Below, piece after piece: positions 3,049 through 14,220 of a DNA stretch of 20,492 nucleotides; the stretch's first letter is position 1; each line of letters opens with the position of its first letter. Source of the stretch: a virus. Below the pieces are notes generated by a model. It saw only the letters and a list, made by a program, of their open reading frames with translations. It searched no databases and was not told the origin of the DNA. The position numbers were made by a program, and so were the translations under genes. The stretch covers positions 1 through 20,492 of the IMG/VR virus record IMGVR_UViG_3300050132_000171. One strand, 5' to 3'.

Positions 3049-4410
3049 TTAGCTGATGAGGCCCAGCGAGATCAAGGCGGCCAACAGCACGTCGGCAACA
3101 TTGGACTGGTTGCTCACCGGCACGCTCAGTTCGGCGCCGCTGCCCGCAGCGAAGTTCACCACAGCATACGTCTCGGCGAACGGCGTGATCGCCGCTGCCG
3201 TGTTGTTCTGGTAGGTGATCGCCAGGGTGTTCGCCGCAGAAACCCGAACGCCGACGATCGCCAGACCGGCCTGCGAGCTTGGCTTGGAGATCGCCACGGG
3301 GGTTGCCGATACCAGACCCGTCACGGTGAAGGTCTGCTCGGCCGTCGTGTTGGCGGCCACCGATGCGGGCGCGAGGGCGGCGCTGTAGGCGGCGGCGGGC
3401 GCGGTTGGAGTGCCGCGGAACACCGACACCGAATACAGTTCGTTCGCGGTCGGCGTGATGCTGGATACGGTGGGATTGACGAAAGTGATCCCCACATGCC
3501 CGGCACTGGACACGCGATACCCGGCGATCCCAAGGCCCGCCTGCTCGGTCGGCTTCGACACACCCATGATGATGTCGGTTGCCAGCAGGCCGGGCACGGC
3601 GACGATCTGCTCGGCCGTGGTGATCGTGGCAACGCCAACCAGCGTGCCGACGTTGACGGTGAAGACCATCACGTTGTTGGCAGCGCCGAGGCCCGCGATA
3701 TCGGCAAACAGATACGTCTCAGCGGCGGTCGGCGTGATGGCCGTTGCCGTGTCGTTGAAGAACGTGATGCCGACCTGGGTTGGCGAGATCACACGCACGC
3801 CGCCGATGCCCAAGCCGGCCTGCGCAGTCGGCTTGTTGACCGCCAGCACGGAACCCACCGCCACGTCGCCCAAGGGGACGGTGAAGGTCTGCTCGGCGCT
3901 GGTATTGGCGGCGATGGCCGCCGGCGACAGCACGGCGGTGAAGGTCAGGGAATCGCCGGAGACAAGCTCGGTGACTTCGTAGGTTTCCGAAGCGGTCGGC
4001 GTGATCGAGCCGCTGGTGTCGTTGCTGAACGTGATGGCCAGGGTATTCGCGGCGGACACGCGAACGCCGGCGATGCCAAGGCCAGCCTGGGCGGTCGGCT
4101 TGTTCACCACAGCAAGCGAGGTCGTGCCGACAAGGCCGGTGACGGTGAACGTCTGTTCAGCGGTCGTATTGGCAGCAACGGCGCTGGGCGAAAGCACCGG
4201 CAGGTAGGTGTTCAGCGTGCCGACGCCGCCGGTGCTGGCAAGGCCCGTGGGCTGAACGGCAGGCGTTGCGCCGAAGAACCCCAATTCCGCTGGGTTGCCG
4301 GAGGAATCCAGCGCCGGGTTGACGATGACGCCGGTGGTGCTGCCGTTGGCAAGCTGCTGAATCTGATTCGAGATCGAAGCGGGAAGCGTGGAGGCATAAA
4401 CGCGGGGCAT
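3049..4410 (-). CDS. Tandem-repeat head decoration / head-fibre candidate
   Basis: A 453-residue protein with an N-terminal domain of about 70 residues (including a GFFGATPAVQPTG segment often seen in phage head-surface proteins) and four imperfect repeats of about 82 to 93 residues at roughly 72-158, 160-251, 252-344 and 345-425. Each repeat carries ANTTAEQTFTV-like, KPTAQAGLGI-like, VRVSAANTLAITF-like and AITPTAxETY-like blocks, which suggests an Ig-like beta fold. The C-terminus (SNVADVLLAALISLGLIS) is a short helix of the kind found at the end of such proteins. It has a TGAGGAAC ribosome-binding site and lies just downstream of the coat gene, consistent with a capsid-binding accessory protein. 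The decoration role is inferred. Confidence 0.7.
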   Translation of the reverse strand: MPRVYASTLPASISNQIQQLANGSTTGVIVNPALDSSGNPAELGFFGATPAVQPTGLASTGGVGTLNTYLPVLSPSAVAANTTAEQTFTVTGLVGTTSLAVVNKPTAQAGLGIAGVRVSAANTLAITFSNDTSGSITPTASETYEVTELVSGDSLTFTAVLSPAAIAANTSAEQTFTVPLGDVAVGSVLAVNKPTAQAGLGIGGVRVISPTQVGITFFNDTATAITPTAAETYLFADIAGLGAANNVMVFTVNVGTLVGVATITTAEQIVAVPGLLATDIIMGVSKPTEQAGLGIAGYRVSSAGHVGITFVNPTVSSITPTANELYSVSVFRGTPTAPAAAYSAALAPASVAANTTAEQTFTVTGLVSATPVAISKPSSQAGLAIVGVRVSAANTLAITYQNNTAAAITPFAETYAVVNFAAGSGAELSVPVSNQSNVADVLLAALISLGLIS

Positions 4411-4739: not shown

Positions 4740-5960
4740 TCAGTTTGTGAGGCGAACGCCAAGCTCGGGGTAGAACGTCGCCGTGCCGTAGAGCAAGTCA
4801 ATACGGCAAGGAAGCACGTCGTTGTTGATATCGTATTGGCGAACGATGCGCAGGGACATGCCCTTCCACATCTGCCGTGCAGCAAAGTCCACACCCTGCG
4901 GCAGTTCCATCGGCACCATCACCAGTCCGAAGCAATCGCGCACGAAGGCGATGTTCTGGGCGTAGCTGGTGCCGGCCGCGCCTCGGACGGTGATAGCCGC
5001 GCCGTTCGCCGGGGATGCGGAAACGGTCTGATAGGCGCCTGTGACGGTGATCGCCGGGGAGATCCCGATGGTCGAGTTGCCGGAGCCGTCGCTGGAAGCC
5101 TGGGCCGTCACGGTGAAGTTCTGCAGCGAGCCGGTGCTGGTCAGGTTCATCGGATTGACGGCGTAGACGCCCTGGACCGTGAAGACGTCACCCACGTTCA
5201 GCAGCGCGGCGATGCCAGTCACCCAACCATTCGTCACCAGGGTGGAGCCGGTCTGGCCCGCACCATTGACGGAGCCAACGCCGGTGGTCAGGCCGGTGAC
5301 GGATGAGAACGTGCCGCCGTAGTTGCCTGTGGTCTGGCTCTGGATGTTCTGGTCCAGATAGATCTCGAAGTTGGCCAGGGCCGCCAGGAAGCCCTTGAAG
5401 GCCGGCTCGGCAACGCTCTTGACGTAGACGCCGCTGGACAGCGCCGTCGCCAGCGCCCAATTCGCGGCCGGGTTCAGGATCAGCACGCGGCCATCCTGCG
5501 GCACGGCGCCTTCGTCCATGCGCTGCCCGACCTGGGCGAGAAACGAGAAGGCGTTCGGCGTCACGCCGGGGGTGCCGACTTGATTGTAGACCTGCTGGAA
5601 ATTGGTCAGCACGTCGAAGTCCACCTGATTGGCGAGCTTGGCGGCGGCCGGCTTCAGATAGCGGTCGGAAAATTCCTCGATCACCAGCGTGAGGTCGCTG
5701 GTCGAGAACTGGAAATCGACGTGCTTCTGATTGGAGATCGTGATGGCGGTCGAAGGCTCGGTCACATTCTGGATGGACAGGCCGGGACCGCTGGTGACGG
5801 TGAACTTGTTCGGCTTGCGAACGGTGATCGTGTTGCCGATCTTGTTGAACTGGTTTTCGAACTGGCGGTTGACCTTACCGGCGGCCACCAAGTTGTTCTC
5901 AAGGATCGCCAGGGTTTCTTTGGCGATGATGCTGGGGGTGAGAAGGCTGTTGGTCGACAT
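4740..5960 (-). CDS. Major capsid protein, P22 coat-like
   Basis: A 406-residue protein. The N-terminal segment (MSTNSLLTPSIIAKETLAIL, then LENNLVAAGKVNRQF) and the following TITVRKPNKFTV beta strand are characteristic of the P22 coat family with the HK97 fold, as is the QVDFDVLTNFQQVYNQVG helix near residue 130. A stretch rich in Gly, Thr and Ser at about 215-330 looks like an inserted beta domain, comparable to the P22 insertion domain. The C-terminus (LLYGTATFYPELGVRLTN) fits the family. P22 coat is 430 residues. A strong AGGAGA ribosome-binding site precedes the ATG. It follows the scaffold gene after a 150-base gap, as expected for a coat gene needing high expression. Confidence 0.92.
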   Translation of the reverse strand: MSTNSLLTPSIIAKETLAILENNLVAAGKVNRQFENQFNKIGNTITVRKPNKFTVTSGPGLSIQNVTEPSTAITISNQKHVDFQFSTSDLTLVIEEFSDRYLKPAAAKLANQVDFDVLTNFQQVYNQVGTPGVTPNAFSFLAQVGQRMDEGAVPQDGRVLILNPAANWALATALSSGVYVKSVAEPAFKGFLAALANFEIYLDQNIQSQTTGNYGGTFSSVTGLTTGVGSVNGAGQTGSTLVTNGWVTGIAALLNVGDVFTVQGVYAVNPMNLTSTGSLQNFTVTAQASSDGSGNSTIGISPAITVTGAYQTVSASPANGAAITVRGAAGTSYAQNIAFVRDCFGLVMVPMELPQGVDFAARQMWKGMSLRIVRQYDINNDVLPCRIDLLYGTATFYPELGVRLTN

Positions 5961-6104: not shown

Positions 6105-6122
6105 GCCGGGCTTATGCCCGGC
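6105..6122 (-). other. Hairpin spanning the scaffold stop codon
   Basis: A perfect 7-bp G/C stem with a 4-base loop lies at the end of the scaffold gene; on the minus strand the loop is ATAA and holds the TAA stop. No U-run follows. The rest of the scaffold-coat gap (5961-6104) shows no gene, only the coat ribosome-binding site. The hairpin may block or pace ribosomes or protect mRNA ends, helping set different scaffold and coat levels; this role is inferred. Confidence 0.55.
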
Positions 6123-7179
6123 TTCCCCACATTGGCGTGCGTCCGTTGGTCGCTTGATTCCGAACGCGGTTGGCGACTTCCTCCATGCTTTCTTCCCGGT
6201 TCGCATTTGAAGCTGGCTCGCGGGATGCCTGCAGCGGAGTAATTGGTGCTGGTGCATTTGATACTCGCACCGGCGGCGTGCTGGCAAGTTTCGCTGATAA
6301 CATGCCGACTTCGAACACTTGCAGCGCCGGCGATAGCTTTGATATCCGCGCCGCTTCTGCCGGATTCTTGCCAAGGTGGTAGGCGATGTCCGGCCCGTTC
6401 GCTGCTGCAATCATGGCGTGCGCGGTGGGGTAGTCGATCGGCAGATTGTCGGCCTCGGTCACGGCTTCGAAGTCCGGGTATTTCACCATGGCTTCAGTCT
6501 TCTTGGCCTCGTATGTGGTCTTCATCGACTCAAGCTGCGCAGCCTGGGATGCCTCGCGCGCTTCGTTCAAGGCGGCTTCACGCGCCTCGGCAGCCTTGCG
6601 CTCGCCATCGGCCGTGGCCTTCGTTGCTGCGGCGGCGGCAGCATCGGTCGCCCATGTGTCGAGCGCGGCATCGTAGGCGTCGGGGTCGTTGAAGTCGGCG
6701 CGCTTCGGCCGCGGCGCGGCGATCGGCTCGGGGGCGGGTTTGGGAGCGAACGCCTTCAGCGCCTCCAATGCTTCATCCAGCCGCTTCTGTGATGCTGCGG
6801 CGGTGGCAAGCGCAGTCTCGCGGGCCGTGTCCGCCTCGCGGCGCTTGTTCCGCTCCTTGGTGATCTCGGCCTTCATCCAAGGCGGCGTCTTGTCGTCTTT
6901 CAGGATCTTGTCGTCGGCGTTCTCGTCCACCGGCGGCTCGCCCGGCTTCGGTGCCTCGGTCGGCGCCGGTGCTTCGGCGGGCTTCGGCGCTTCAATCTGG
7001 TCGGCGCCGCTGCGGGCGCGCACCAGGGCGGCTTGATCCGTCGCGCTCATCTCGCCAACGCTGCCGGCGGCGCGGTCGGCCGGGTCGTTGGAGGCGTTCA
7101 CCGGCGGCGCGGCCGGCATGGACGAAAGCGGATCGCTCCCGGTGGCGTTCAGTGCTGGGCCTGTGGTTGGGTCTGACAT
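6112..7179 (-). CDS. Head scaffolding protein
   Basis: A 355-residue protein, very rich in Ala, Glu, Lys and Pro. Residues 1-100 are disordered-looking with a Pro-Ala-rich stretch (EAPKPAEAPAPTEAPKPGEP). Residues 100-145 and about 175-230 are long charged helices, probably coiled coils. A conserved-looking block at about 259-284 (GPDIAYHLGKNPAEAARISK) is typical of scaffold proteins of phages with a P22-like coat. The basic C-terminus may contact coat. It sits between portal and coat, the standard scaffold position. The ribosome-binding site is TAGGAGT, in which TAG is the stop of the portal gene. The predicted role is to guide procapsid assembly and leave before or during packaging. Confidence 0.85.
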   Translation of the reverse strand: MSDPTTGPALNATGSDPLSSMPAAPPVNASNDPADRAAGSVGEMSATDQAALVRARSGADQIEAPKPAEAPAPTEAPKPGEPPVDENADDKILKDDKTPPWMKAEITKERNKRREADTARETALATAAASQKRLDEALEALKAFAPKPAPEPIAAPRPKRADFNDPDAYDAALDTWATDAAAAAATKATADGERKAAEAREAALNEAREASQAAQLESMKTTYEAKKTEAMVKYPDFEAVTEADNLPIDYPTAHAMIAAANGPDIAYHLGKNPAEAARISKLSPALQVFEVGMLSAKLASTPPVRVSNAPAPITPLQASREPASNANREESMEEVANRVRNQATNGRTPMWGSRA

Positions 7180-7188
7180 GGCTGACTC

Positions 7189-9522
7189 CTATCTCGGCGG
7201 CATCGGTGCTTGAGGCGGTGCCGCTGATGGCATCCCGGCGGACGGTGCCGGTCCCGTAGGCATACCCTGCTGCTGCGTTGGCGGCGGCAGTATTTGTGAC
7301 GACTGGTGCAGCGCGTTCAACGCCTGCCCTGCCGCATCTTCGACTTTTCCGCTGGAAAGCTGCTTCACCAACCCCGTCACGTTCTGGCCAAGCTCTTGAA
7401 GTTGTGCGCCGACATGCGCGTTGAAGGAAGCCTCGGCCTTCTGCACCACGCCCAGCACCTTCGCCTCGAAGTCCAGATGGATCTTTTCGAGACTGACGGC
7501 GCGGTCGCCTTCCTTGTCCTTCAGCGCCATCGCGGCCTGCTGCAGCTTCATGGTCAGGTCTTTGATCTGCATGTCCATTGATTGCAGCAACGCCTGGGTT
7601 TGAGGCGTGATGTCCTTCATGTCCGGGGTCAGCAGGTGCGGCGGAATCGTCTTCGCCAAGCGCGATGCGATCTGCTCGGCTTCCGGCCAATCCTGATTCT
7701 TCGCAATGAGGTCGGCAACCACGGCTGCGGTCTGCGGCAGCGCGCGGACGAACGCCATCATGCTCTCGGCGGCCTCGATGCGCTTGGTGGCGAAGCTCGG
7801 CCCGATCGTCACGGTCACGCCGTATTTGCCCATCGTCGGGTTGAAAATCTTCTGCATCTTGCCGGTCTGCGGGTGCGGCTGCTGGTCGTATGCCTTCTGC
7901 GCGTGCGGGTCGAGTATGACCTGTTCCTCGCCGCCGTCCTCCCGCAAGATCGTCATCATCCGCTTGGTGTCGATCACCTTGGGAATCAGGTCGATGAAAA
8001 TGTCGCCCTGGTGCTTCAGGCTGCGGCACAGGTTGTCCATGTAGTGAAAGCTGCCCATGTCGCTCGTCTGGCGAAGCTCTCGCAGCGCACGGCCGCTCTC
8101 GTCCGTCACGCGCTCCTGCTTGGTGCTGTCGAACCTGATGCCCGTGGTGGCCATCATGTCCTGCGCGGCGCTCTGCTTCAGGCTCTCCCACCCGGCGGCC
8201 GGCATCGACGGGGGTTGGCGCTGCGGCGGCGGCAATGGTTGGCCATTCAGGGACCGCGGCTGGTATTCGAGATAGGGAAACGACTTGGTGTTGGCGGACA
8301 GCCACTTGTCCTCATGGCCCTCGAACTGGCCCTCGGCGCCCACGAACGGGGCTTTCGGCGCCAGGGCAATCGTCTCCATCTCCATCGTCGACGAATAGTT
8401 GTATGACCGCTGGGCGTCCTTGGCGTTGCGGATGATGCCGGACAGCTTCAGCTTTCCCTCGATGTCGATCTCGTTGCCGACAACGCGGATGATCGGTATC
8501 CACTTCCCGGCCCACTTGCGGCGCTCAAGGATCTCAACGGCGGTCAGCTTATACCACATGACGGTCGGGACATCGGCCTCGCGCTCGGCCAGGATTTCCA
8601 GCTTGCCGGATGCAATCGCGGCCTTCACGTCGTCGGATAGATCATCCTTCCATCCGACATGCCCATTGGATAGCTGAACGAGATCCTTGATCTTGTAAGT
8701 AATAACGAAGTATTCAGCAACACGAACACTCTTTTCGTCAATCCAGTTCTTGTATGTATCGCCGGCCGCGCTCTCGGTCCATGACATCGGATCAGCATCG
8801 GGATAGACATCTTCGAACTCGGCGCGCGGAATCAACTCGGTGATGAACGCATACCGCTTGTCGGACGTGTCCGGTTCTTGGCTGGTGGGGTCCGTGTAGA
8901 CCGAGAACGTGTTGCGGATGCGCTTTATCAGCAGGGTTTGATCCATCGATTCCGGCGATTCGTATTCCGTCACCACCCGCCAAAAGCCCCAGCCGATCGA
9001 GGCCGCGCTGTCGAACGCGGTGTCATAGGCGACGTCGGCGTGGCTCTGGCGCTCGAAGAACCGGATCAGGCCGCGATACATCTTCGCAACCTCGGGGTCC
9101 GACTTGTCACCCACCGGGGACACGTTGATCGTCGGCCGGTTGTTCCGCTGCTCGTTCACCACCTGATTGACGAAGGTGGGGATCTTGTTGATCGTCATGC
9201 AGGGCCGCATGTCGTTGTTGCGCTGCGCGGCGATCGACGCCGGCCACTGGTCGCCGGCCTTGAACTTCAGGTCTTCCAGCCCGGCGACGCGATTGTCGCT
9301 CTCGGCCGAGGCGCATGTGTCGAAGTGCTTGCGGGCTTTTGCCAGGATTTTCTGGTCCTCAGCGTCGTCCTCGTCGGTGCCGAGCATCAGATCCTTGGCG
9401 TCGTCCTTGCTGCCCTTGCCGCCCTTGTCCTTCACCATGACGGGGATGCGGTTCATGCCGGCCGTCACCTTGGGCATCCCAATCTTGCCGTTGTCTCTCG
9501 GCTTCCGCGGGTCTTGTGCCAT
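7189..9522 (-). CDS. Portal protein, P22-like
   Basis: A 777-residue protein, close to P22 gp1 (725). Hallmarks are GDQWPASIAAQRNNDMRPCM followed by TINKIPTFVNQVVNEQRNNR (about 90-129), the WGFWRVVTEYE segment near 178, and VYTDPTSQEPDTSDKRYAFI near 208-227. Residues about 600-720 are helical and contain a likely coiled coil, as in the P22 portal barrel; the tail is rich in Pro, Gln, Met and Ala. The portal forms the dodecameric ring through which DNA is packaged. The ATG is in a TGATG overlap with the stop of the upstream gene, and the TAG stop is fused to the scaffold ribosome-binding site. The DNA at about 8640-8770 looks more A/T-rich than its surroundings. Confidence 0.93.
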   Translation of the reverse strand: MAQDPRKPRDNGKIGMPKVTAGMNRIPVMVKDKGGKGSKDDAKDLMLGTDEDDAEDQKILAKARKHFDTCASAESDNRVAGLEDLKFKAGDQWPASIAAQRNNDMRPCMTINKIPTFVNQVVNEQRNNRPTINVSPVGDKSDPEVAKMYRGLIRFFERQSHADVAYDTAFDSAASIGWGFWRVVTEYESPESMDQTLLIKRIRNTFSVYTDPTSQEPDTSDKRYAFITELIPRAEFEDVYPDADPMSWTESAAGDTYKNWIDEKSVRVAEYFVITYKIKDLVQLSNGHVGWKDDLSDDVKAAIASGKLEILAEREADVPTVMWYKLTAVEILERRKWAGKWIPIIRVVGNEIDIEGKLKLSGIIRNAKDAQRSYNYSSTMEMETIALAPKAPFVGAEGQFEGHEDKWLSANTKSFPYLEYQPRSLNGQPLPPPQRQPPSMPAAGWESLKQSAAQDMMATTGIRFDSTKQERVTDESGRALRELRQTSDMGSFHYMDNLCRSLKHQGDIFIDLIPKVIDTKRMMTILREDGGEEQVILDPHAQKAYDQQPHPQTGKMQKIFNPTMGKYGVTVTIGPSFATKRIEAAESMMAFVRALPQTAAVVADLIAKNQDWPEAEQIASRLAKTIPPHLLTPDMKDITPQTQALLQSMDMQIKDLTMKLQQAAMALKDKEGDRAVSLEKIHLDFEAKVLGVVQKAEASFNAHVGAQLQELGQNVTGLVKQLSSGKVEDAAGQALNALHQSSQILPPPTQQQGMPTGPAPSAGMPSAAPPQAPMPPR

Positions 9523-10001
9523 CAGGCGGCCTCGATCTTGTCGATCACGACATCCAAGCGCAACACCGGAACAGGGTCAGCATATCCGATGATTGATTCC
9601 GCCTCCCAAATGGGAGGGAACGTCCATCCAACAACGGTCCGAACCGAAATGTTGTCCAGCATTTCGCGGCCGGCTTGGCATCCCATCGGTAGTTCGAGCG
9701 GGTAAAACGCGCAACCTTTCGGCACAACCGCTGCCAGCCGGCTCGCCAATGGAGCCAAAATCCGATCGCTGAAATCTTCAAATGTTGATACGCAATCGGC
9801 ATACGTCAATTGAGTATCGGCGGAAAATTGAGAAATCCCAGGTTCGATCTTCACGAATTTATTTCGGAATGGAACTTCGCCTTTCCCAAATTCCGCAACG
9901 AATAGCCGGCAGGCTTCACGTGCAACCCCACTGAAATTCTTTATAATTTCGGGGTTTTTGTTGCCGCCAGGAGTTTGCATGTCTCTATTCCCTTGAATCA
10001 T
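9522..10001 (-). CDS. Unknown protein, A/T-rich gene upstream of portal
   Basis: A 159-residue protein that I do not recognise. It opens MIQGNRDMQTPGGNKNPEII and contains a helical ACRLFVAEFGKGEVPF segment and a YADCVSTFEDFSDRILAPLA segment; the C-terminus is beta-like (VPVLRLDVVIDKIEAA). No signal peptide. An alternative start is the second Met at residue 8. The start overlaps the previous stop by ATGA and the stop overlaps the portal ATG by TGATG, so it is embedded in the operon. Codon use has more A/T-ending codons than in its neighbours, hinting at separate acquisition. Confidence 0.7.
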   Translation of the reverse strand: MIQGNRDMQTPGGNKNPEIIKNFSGVAREACRLFVAEFGKGEVPFRNKFVKIEPGISQFSADTQLTYADCVSTFEDFSDRILAPLASRLAAVVPKGCAFYPLELPMGCQAGREMLDNISVRTVVGWTFPPIWEAESIIGYADPVPVLRLDVVIDKIEAA

Positions 10002-11517: not shown

Positions 11518-14220
11518 CTATGTTCCCAGCCATCCAAGCTGCCCGCCCGTCGGCCCACCGGAACGGGAATTTTCCTTGAAGCGCGTCCGCCGCTGCCGCA
11601 CCGGCTCGGCAAAGGTCAGCGCAACGGAGTCCCACTCGTCAGGGGACCGGATGCCGCGCGCCACCATCTTCTCTTTCGGCTCAAGCAAAAGCTGCTGCGC
11701 CATGTTGTAGGTGTAGCTCGGCCCGCACGCATCGGACTGCAGGCTGTCGAGGTCGGGAATGTCGGCGCCGCCAACCTGTGTCAGCCAGTCCCGTGAGCGG
11801 GACCACATCTCGGCCCGCCGGTTGGCAGCGCCCGGCACCTTCGTTCCGTCCTGCAGGATCACCACCGGGTCTTGCGGGCTGCCGCCGAAGTTCACGCCCA
11901 CCACCACGCTGCAATACGGCTCGCCCCAGGACTGCAGAATGTCGAACGTCCCAGCGCCAACGCCGCCGAGGTCGATGAACACCCGATCGGGATCGTCCGC
12001 GTCGATCACCTGCCTGAGCCAGTTGGCGCCCTCAATCGTCCCCACCTTCAGCTTGCTCTCAACCTTCTCAACCTTGCGGCCACGCCGCCACGCCAGGGAA
12101 AACCGATCCTTGCCCATGCGCGCTGGATCCGCGCCGATCACCAGGGGGCCAATCCCCTCGCATGTCGCCTTGCGCGCCCACACCACACTTTCCGGCGTGA
12201 TAAAGCTCTCATGGCCGGAAAACTGGAACATCTCTTGCGCCGTCGCCGGGTATTCCTGCCGGAATAAATTCGGGTCTTTCAACTCCGCAACCTTCGCCCG
12301 GCGCCAAACCATCTGCCGCATCGTCAGCCGGTGCATCCCGGCATATTCCCGTTCCTCGGTATCCAGCACGAAATCCAGCGGCACATCCCGCGAATATTCC
12401 GGCGTCATGAACCAGGGGATGAAAATCGCGATGTAATCGCCCTCGCTCGCCTCGGCCTGCTGCCAACGCTCATGGAACTCGCCACCAACGCCAGCGCCCG
12501 TCGACTCAAGGATGATCTCGGTATCCGGCAAATCCGGCACTGCCTGCACCACGCCGCCAAAGTGCGCCGCCGCATTCGCCCAGAACGCGACTTCGGAATT
12601 ATGGGAGGCTGCATGGATGGTGGTGTAGGAATGATCGGGATGGTCGACTTCGAAATCCATCACTTCGACATCGCCAATCTCTTCCGTGGACACAACCGGA
12701 ACCCAGGCGTAACCGCCTGATATCTTGATATCTCCATACCCCTTTCGCTTGCGTGGGGGCATCTGCCATCCCATTTCGGCACAGAGAACATCAACGCCAG
12801 CGCCACACAGTCTCAAAATCCATTGCTCGCGCTCATTGCGTCCATGCCTGATAGCGGCTTTTTGGTGATAGATGCCGGCCCATCCATAGCCGGATGCCGC
12901 CAGCGCATCTCTCATGCCGATCGTGATCGCTGACCGGATGCTTGGAGCCGAGATCCGACGATTACCAGAGGCTTTGCTGCTGTGACCGTCGCCGGCAAGA
13001 TATCCATGAATCAGACCTCGGACAAAATCGACGCCACACTCACGCCATTCGGCGGGCAGGCGCTTCTCATCAAGGCAACCGCACTGAACCAGCACAAACG
13101 CGGCAAACGATTTGCTGGAAATGACGATATTGACCGTCTTGCTATCGCTGCGAGGTTCAACATGGGGAGGGGTGCGAAACAGACCTGACAGCGGCTTCAG
13201 CCACTCAATCGTCCGGTCGACCTCGCGCTCATGAACCGTGAATGTCACGCCAGACAGAACGCCCGATTTCCACTGACGCTTGATGCTTCCTTCTGCCAGA
13301 TATAGGCCGAGGACACGGCCTATATCATAATTTGGGGAGACATGATCTGGTCCGGTTTGTCGTGTTCCGCCGCCTTGAGGTCGTGCGATATCAGGAACGC
13401 GGAACTTCCACTCAATTCCAGAATCGGAAATCGTTGATACTGGGTAGCCCAATACATCGCCGGGGAGAAATTCTCCAAGATTGCGCCATCCTTGCGGACT
13501 CCAAAAGCGGTGAATGTCAGTTCCAATCAAAGGGAATGCTCTGACATTCTTCAGAACAACGCGGCGGGCGGCTTTCATCTGGCGGCTGATGAAGCTGATC
13601 TTTGCGATCGCGCCTGTGTGGGTGCGGACCAAATCACCAACTCGATGCGCGCCCATTGGAACAAGAGATCCCGTCAGGGGATGAACAATCGGAGTGTCGG
13701 GAGATAGGCATCCATGCAGCCGTTGGATCGTGCGGGACCGGCCGATCGCCTTGGTGCCCGCGGTTCCAACCGCATACCCGCTGTCGAGCTTGTCGAAATA
13801 TAATTCCTTCGCGTTCGACTTCGCCGTCGACACCCGCAGCGGGTTATGTTTGTGAAACCGCTCCACCATCCCAAACAGGTTGTCCGTCGCCGGCTGCTCA
13901 TGCGTCAGGATGAACGTGTTCACGCCGCGCCGCGTCGACGTGGCGTGGTAGAACCTGCCGCCAATGTAGGTGCTGCCGCCGGACTGCCGGCCTTTGCCCA
14001 GGATCGCACGAACCCTGCCAGTCCGCGCCTTCTGTTCCTCCAATCGGCCATGCAGGTAGGCTTGCGCCAGATTGAAATCAAACGGCACAATCGTGCCAGC
14101 CTTCGTCTTGATCTTCAGGCATTGCGCGGCGAACAGCGGGTAATTCCCCAACAGCCGCCGCATCGAAGCATCACGCGCTTTCTGTGTGTCAGCGTCCTCC
14201 GTGAAAAACGAAGCACTCAT
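11518..14220 (-). CDS. Large terminase subunit (TerL) interrupted by an in-frame intein
   Basis: A 900-residue frame; removing the intein (171-541) leaves 529 residues, close to P22 gp2 (499). The N-extein has the Walker A-type loop GKGRQSGGST (75-84) and a THEQPATDNLF segment. The C-extein resumes at SEVAFWANA, where Glu543 is the expected catalytic carboxylate of Walker B, then ESTGAGVGGEF (572-582), the coupling motif. The C-terminal nuclease shows acidic residues at GADPAR (Asp697), FIDLGG (Asp750) and EWDSVALTF (Asp864). The protein drives ATP-dependent packaging and cuts the concatemer. Its ATG overlaps the previous stop (ATGA), and its stop TAG is part of the next ribosome-binding site. 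Confidence 0.95.
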   Translation of the reverse strand: MSASFFTEDADTQKARDASMRRLLGNYPLFAAQCLKIKTKAGTIVPFDFNLAQAYLHGRLEEQKARTGRVRAILGKGRQSGGSTYIGGRFYHATSTRRGVNTFILTHEQPATDNLFGMVERFHKHNPLRVSTAKSNAKELYFDKLDSGYAVGTAGTKAIGRSRTIQRLHGCLSPDTPIVHPLTGSLVPMGAHRVGDLVRTHTGAIAKISFISRQMKAARRVVLKNVRAFPLIGTDIHRFWSPQGWRNLGEFLPGDVLGYPVSTISDSGIEWKFRVPDIARPQGGGTRQTGPDHVSPNYDIGRVLGLYLAEGSIKRQWKSGVLSGVTFTVHEREVDRTIEWLKPLSGLFRTPPHVEPRSDSKTVNIVISSKSFAAFVLVQCGCLDEKRLPAEWRECGVDFVRGLIHGYLAGDGHSSKASGNRRISAPSIRSAITIGMRDALAASGYGWAGIYHQKAAIRHGRNEREQWILRLCGAGVDVLCAEMGWQMPPRKRKGYGDIKISGGYAWVPVVSTEEIGDVEVMDFEVDHPDHSYTTIHAASHNSEVAFWANAAAHFGGVVQAVPDLPDTEIILESTGAGVGGEFHERWQQAEASEGDYIAIFIPWFMTPEYSRDVPLDFVLDTEEREYAGMHRLTMRQMVWRRAKVAELKDPNLFRQEYPATAQEMFQFSGHESFITPESVVWARKATCEGIGPLVIGADPARMGKDRFSLAWRRGRKVEKVESKLKVGTIEGANWLRQVIDADDPDRVFIDLGGVGAGTFDILQSWGEPYCSVVVGVNFGGSPQDPVVILQDGTKVPGAANRRAEMWSRSRDWLTQVGGADIPDLDSLQSDACGPSYTYNMAQQLLLEPKEKMVARGIRSPDEWDSVALTFAEPVRQRRTRFKENSRSGGPTGGQLGWLGT
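12598..13710 (-). mobile_element. Intein with LAGLIDADG-type homing endonuclease in TerL
   Basis: A 371-residue segment within TerL. It starts with Cys171 (CLSPDTPIV, splicing block A) and contains block B with the T-x-x-H motif (GTDIH, Thr234-His237). It ends with a DFEVDHPDHSYTT block F and a His540-Asn541 pair (HAASHN, block G), followed by extein Ser542 as the +1 nucleophile. Between them lie two LAGLIDADG-like motifs, VLGLYLAEG (303-311) and GLIHGYLAGDG (402-412), each with an acidic residue, so the endonuclease looks potentially active. It should excise itself post-translationally and join HG to SEVAFW. The DNA looks more A/T-rich than the exteins, consistent with later arrival. Confidence 0.93.

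Follow-up and report, generated by a model that had tools for sequence, protein, structure and literature searches.

A class 1 intein with a LAGLIDADG homing endonuclease in the Walker B site of a P22-type large terminase, and its same-site relatives in other viral terminases

The gene for the DNA-packaging terminase of a virus may carry, within the ATPase active site of its product, several hundred codons that have no counterpart in related terminases, which raises the question of what such a segment is, how it came to lie there, and whether it serves the virus or only itself. Here, this question is addressed for a large terminase (terL) gene in the window, i.e., the whole stretch of DNA that was analysed, a virus record of 20,492 bases. 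The features to which the following paragraphs refer are these.

4740..5960, minus strand: P22-type coat protein (PF11651, E 2e-52)
6112..7179, minus strand: head scaffolding protein (phrog_8865, E 1.6e-27)
7189..9522, minus strand: P22-type portal protein (PF16510, E 3e-169)
11518..14220, minus strand: terL precursor gene, 900 aa, a single open reading frame (phrog_2, terminase large subunit, E 5e-20)
13711..14220, minus strand: N-extein, residues 1-170, the ATPase domain up to the Walker B strand, ending in QRLHG
12598..13710, minus strand: class 1 intein with LAGLIDADG homing endonuclease, 371 aa, Cys171 to Asn541
13421..13710, minus strand: N-terminal splicing domain, about intein residues 1-97, with Cys1 and block B T64xxH67 (from the family alignment)
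12751..13344, minus strand: LAGLIDADG endonuclease domain, intein residues 123-320, with GLYLAEG (Glu140) and GYLAGDG (Asp241)
12598..12726, minus strand: C-terminal splicing segment, intein residues 329-371, with block F VMDFEVDHPDHSY and the terminal His-Asn
11518..12597, minus strand: C-extein, residues 542-900, the remainder of Walker B (+1 Ser at the Asp position, catalytic Glu543) and the nuclease domain, stop codon included

The 900-residue precursor frame contains no stop, and its exteins, which together make a predicted spliced TerL of 529 aa, align to annotated terminase large subunits of Vibrio phages and others. The N-extein matches the ATPase of T4 gp17 in a profile alignment and the nuclease part of the C-extein matches Sf6 gp2 (E 8e-6); since this nuclease match is joined by P22-type portal and coat genes next door, the label "P22-type" is fair for this TerL. 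Neither a Pfam family nor an NCBIfam name is assigned to the protein, and such TerL genes can thus escape annotation. The open reading frame, the boundaries of the inserted segment and the three lengths (900, 371, and 529 aa) agree to the residue with a preliminary description of this DNA. Two neighbouring genes also deserve mention. A 159-aa gene between terminase and portal (9522-10001, minus strand) is missing from the three loci closest to the window (L002, L003, and L004), the DNA of which is otherwise colinear with the window around it; this gene has no Pfam or PHROG family and no match among the fetched loci. Between the coat gene and the left end of the window, a 453-aa protein (3049-4410, minus strand), likewise with no Pfam or PHROG family, carries internal repeats (AANTTAEQTFTV ... 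KPTAQAGLGIAGVRV).

Sequence motifs and predicted fold identify residues 171-541 of the precursor as a class 1 intein with a two-motif LAGLIDADG homing endonuclease, for which activity is predicted. The segment begins CLSPDTP and ends in His-Asn followed by a +1 Ser, so that Cys1, the block B T-x-x-H, the C-terminal His-Asn and the +1 Ser named in the preliminary description are all present. Cys occupies position 1 in every family member with a visible start; block B (T64-D-I-H67) is at least 90% conserved across the family of related inteins described below; and in an alignment of 20 members V350, D352, F353, D359, H360, S361, Y362, and N371 are invariant, most of them in or next to block F, which reads DFEVDHPDHSY in the window. 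Both LAGLIDADG acidic residues, Glu140 and Asp241, are kept. Sequence libraries detect the segment weakly, through intein-containing NCBIfam models and Pfam LAGLIDADG_3 (E 1.7e-4, just under the cut-off), and a search of PDB sequences with a profile of five same-site relatives picked out the inteins of Mtu RecA and Ssp DnaB. An AF2 model of the 371 residues, built from 20 family members, reached a pLDDT of 92.7 and matches the TliVMA intein over its whole length (Foldseek E 7e-16; VIA Z 27.5), as it does PI-SceI and PI-PkoII end to end. The splicing part of the model superimposes on the Mtu RecA, Ssp DnaB, and gp41-1 mini-inteins at Z 18-19 with an rmsd of about 2, which points to a Hint fold, and residues 123-320 match I-DmoI at a Z of about 17. 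Given these features, the window copy may be expected both to splice and to cut, and with its canonical His-Asn end it is expected to splice fast.

The position of the intein in the ATPase active site was placed by aligning a profile of intein-free TerL proteins to T4 gp17, an alignment of weak score (E 5e-4) in which LLHG|SEVAF lies opposite IYI|DECAF, so that S542 aligns with gp17 D255 and E543 with E256. In gp17, D255-E256 are the Walker B and catalytic residues. As judged from this alignment, the insertion lies directly before the Walker B Asp position, and the catalytic Glu is the second residue after the intein. Mapping through a structural model of the intein-free TerL of L002 was abandoned because that model is poor (pLDDT 59), and the active-site mapping hence rests on the gp17 profile alignment. 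Together with the Sf6 gp2 match, the P22-type neighbours and the model fold, it bears out the earlier proposal that an intein interrupts Walker B in a P22-type TerL. The same proposal held that the packaging motor lacks its catalytic Walker B glutamate until splicing; this was only partly right, as the residue is present in the precursor, although 371 residues separate it from the Walker B strand. With the Walker B acids cut off from their own strand, the unspliced ATPase should probably be inactive. In the TerL family of the window the Walker B Asp position is held by Ser, and this substitution may let the intein use the residue as its +1 nucleophile, which would give a concrete chemical reason why an intein is tolerated at a Walker B site. 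The surrounding stretch, HGSEVAFWA, ranks 7th in conservation among 495 nine-residue windows of the protein.

Relatives of the segment, the existence of which the preliminary description had made a point to check, occur in the TerL genes of 19 other loci. While a scan of viral contigs with the single intein sequence gave no match, the first members of the family came to light through a degenerate DNA pattern for HN[S/T]E[V/I]AFW, and a profile search then extended it; six of the ten hits of the pattern were intein-free terminases with a native His-Asn. Two of the loci (L104 and L107) are near-identical, leaving 19 distinct elements with the window included, so that at least 18 further uncultivated phages carry such an intein. 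All come from IMG/VR contigs except one, which is from a metagenome-assembled genome (MAG; L111). The insertion point is identical in all 18 loci that hold both boundaries, again counting the window; two others (L091 and L099) are fragments in which only the C-terminal junction is visible. The inteins are 40-63% identical to that of the window and sit in very different terminases (the N-extein of L102, which has a +1 Thr, is 29% identical). A family of 19 distinct inteins at one point in such different TerL proteins is new.

Within this family the terminal Asn is invariant, and the penultimate residue is His in most members, Ser in six, and Lys in one. In L099 the Asp of the second LAGLIDADG motif is replaced by Asn and the endonuclease is probably dead, and two loci carry natural mini-inteins that occupy this TerL site but have lost the endonuclease, i.e., L106:11-472 (154 aa) and L108:4001-4450 (150 aa), the latter with the unusual Lys-Asn end. 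The TerL of L111:4921-7095 (WGMI01000017.1, MAG bacterium RI_152) is interrupted twice, by an intein at this Walker B site and by another, of about 230 aa with a LAGLIDADG-like motif of its own, in the Walker A region (VKGRQQGC / CLAPETRV...LVSHN / STYWGGRF). Three further candidates (L109, L110, and L112) were dropped, their intein match being 23-24% and their exteins showing no match to the window TerL. One of them, the viral contig L109:1181-5680, carries a ribonucleotide reductase-like gene with apparently two inteins that are 23-25% identical to the window intein. INPHARED/GenBank phages and PLSDB plasmids gave weak intein matches (20-31% identity), with no TerL annotation among the matches listed; one phage match is near full length and lies under a portal gene, and the other matches listed are partial.

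The same site is empty in close relatives of the window phage. A query of viral contigs with the C-extein returned 80 relatives, including L002, which is 97% identical in both exteins, and L003 (C-extein 92%, N-extein 85% identical), both intein-free. In these two the N-part and C-part lie on adjacent bases, with 529 codons each and no gap, joined as HG|SEVAFW, which is the junction that the preliminary description had predicted for intein-free homologues; the insert is likewise missing from the 77 other relatives that span the site, and all 79 read through. The residues after the junction are SE in all 79, and the +1 Ser is thus native to the terminase. Third-position GC is 0.55 in the intein and 0.77-0.80 in the exteins, which is what a recently arrived element should show. 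Among the intein relatives no possible donor exceeded 63% identity, and it is hence from the empty sisters, rather than from a visible donor, that we infer a recent arrival.

Around the insertion itself, four of six bases differ between L002 (1858-1864) and the window (13711-13714 and 12596-12597), all synonymously: the window reads TGGA|TC and L002 reads CGGG|AG. The resulting +1 Ser codon of L002, AGC, is rare, AGY occurring in three of the 79 relatives. Co-conversion, or a homing-resistant allele, could perhaps account for these differences; this is only a lead, because two other spots in terL equal the insertion site in divergence.

Comparison of inteins with their hosts points to movement between terminases. 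Intein identity exceeds C-extein identity in 108 of 136 pairs, and the intein tree contradicts the extein tree, above all in the case of L101, whose intein falls in one set (support 100/99) and whose extein falls in the other (92/100). The window extein groups with L111, L096, and L099 at 100/99 and the window intein with L091-L093, a conflict that rests on intein forks of lower support (83-90%). As their trees disagree with those of their host genes, the inteins move horizontally. The patchy occurrence, the endonuclease that looks intact, the conflicting trees and the decayed copies are what a homing cycle leaves behind, and the natural series found here, which comprises complete elements, one whose endonuclease is probably dead, two that have lost it, empty sisters and a twin-intein case, makes such a cycle in phages directly testable.

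We consider it highly probable that the segment is a selfish homing intein in the Walker B site, predicted to splice out of the TerL precursor and to cut empty sites, and close to neutral once spliced. Splicing would follow the usual route, with an acyl shift at Cys1, transfer to the +1 Ser, cyclisation of Asn371 and ligation of HG to SEVAFW, and would yield a normal 529-residue packaging ATPase/nuclease. The LAGLIDADG endonuclease would cut the matching terL site of a co-infecting intein-free phage, and the intein would be copied into that gene as the cut is repaired. The Walker B site may have been chosen because the stretch is among the most conserved of the gene and because the Ser at the Asp position supplies the +1 nucleophile. 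One observation runs against pure selfishness, i.e., the persistence of two copies without endonuclease, which selfish homing explains only as late decay.

Those two copies, splice-competent by sequence, also speak for a different role, in which slow or conditional splicing would delay the ATPase and let packaging start late or only under certain conditions, as has already been proposed for the TerL of cyanophage Mic1 (PMC7156551); the preliminary description had suggested that splicing could time packaging. Such a switch could draw on an ATPase that should be dead until spliced, the Walker B acids being severed from their strand, and on the variable penultimate residue of the family (His, Ser, or Lys), as variation of this kind alters the splicing rate of mycobacteriophage inteins (PMC5050341). 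Yet a 97%-identical sister and all 79 site-spanning relatives do without the intein, the window copy ends in the canonical His-Asn and should therefore splice fast, and the intact-looking endonuclease, the distribution and the tree conflict need only homing; an intein that passes from one TerL lineage to another, and in some of them decays, behaves as a selfish homing element would. We therefore regard a regulatory switch as unlikely, and equally doubt that the same-site lineage has been kept partly because splicing sets the onset of the packaging ATPase. If it had been, the endonuclease-less copies and the His/Ser/Lys variation would reflect splicing speeds tuned to the phage life cycle. Timing of packaging by the intein is possible in principle; it gained no support here and no sign of it was seen, and the literature searched yielded no direct test of the idea for TerL inteins.

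Two further explanations were considered. That the insertion no longer splices, leaving terL broken and the phage defective, is very improbable given an open 900-aa frame, the presence of all splicing residues and a fold predicted with high confidence. An assembly chimera of two genomes could be suspected from contig L004, which shares 99% identity with the window along 6 kb and stops at a distance of 105 bp from the intein, a place where assembly could fail if the population were mixed; both junctions are, however, in frame and base-exact, and independent contigs from other samples hold an element of this kind at the identical point, on which grounds an artefact was rejected as extremely improbable. 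A selfish homing intein thus remains the preferred reading.

In mycobacteriophages no other protein carries inteins as often as the terminase, where they occupy sites a-g (Kelley et al. 2016, PMC5050341). Of the mycobacteriophage terminase inteins, five were tested for splicing in the laboratory and every one spliced readily, and cutting was active in both terminase inteins tested, from BAKA and Bethlehem (PMC5050341); control of packaging by TerL inteins has been proposed as well (PMC7156551, PMC5050341). With regard to structure, the archaeal VMA intein TliVMA (7qss, 7qsu) and yeast PI-SceI share the two-part architecture of the window intein over residues 1-371 (Z 21-27), but they are only 12-17% identical to it and belong to another host protein and another class of organism. 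An intein-like stretch of Eggerthella phage LE2-3 is related over 97% of the length of the window intein, but at 24% identity (E 5e-4) and annotated under a portal gene rather than TerL. Cyanophage Mic1 resembles the window in that its large terminase carries inteins, two in number; these are set apart by their description, lying in the ATPase and nuclease domains and being followed by Thr and Cys (PMC7156551). An insertion just before the Walker B acids was not found in the literature searched, most subscription literature lying outside it, and this site is absent from the published list of mycobacteriophage TerL inteins as far as its accessible part goes, which suggests that the position immediately ahead of the Walker B acids is a new insertion site. 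The closest comparison is with TerL1-e (Gaia gp2), an intein in Walker B that likewise shows LAGLIDADG-like features and interrupts a large terminase at its ATPase active site; it splits LNE/SHHM, the empty LNESHHM being found in the intein-free Gordonia phage BeeGee. While the Gaia intein is inserted after NE, two residues downstream, the window intein lies before the S of SE; while the former starts with ALALDTP, without Cys1, and looks class 3, the latter is class 1; and while TerL1-e resides in a Terminase_1-type TerL, the window intein resides in a P22-type TerL.
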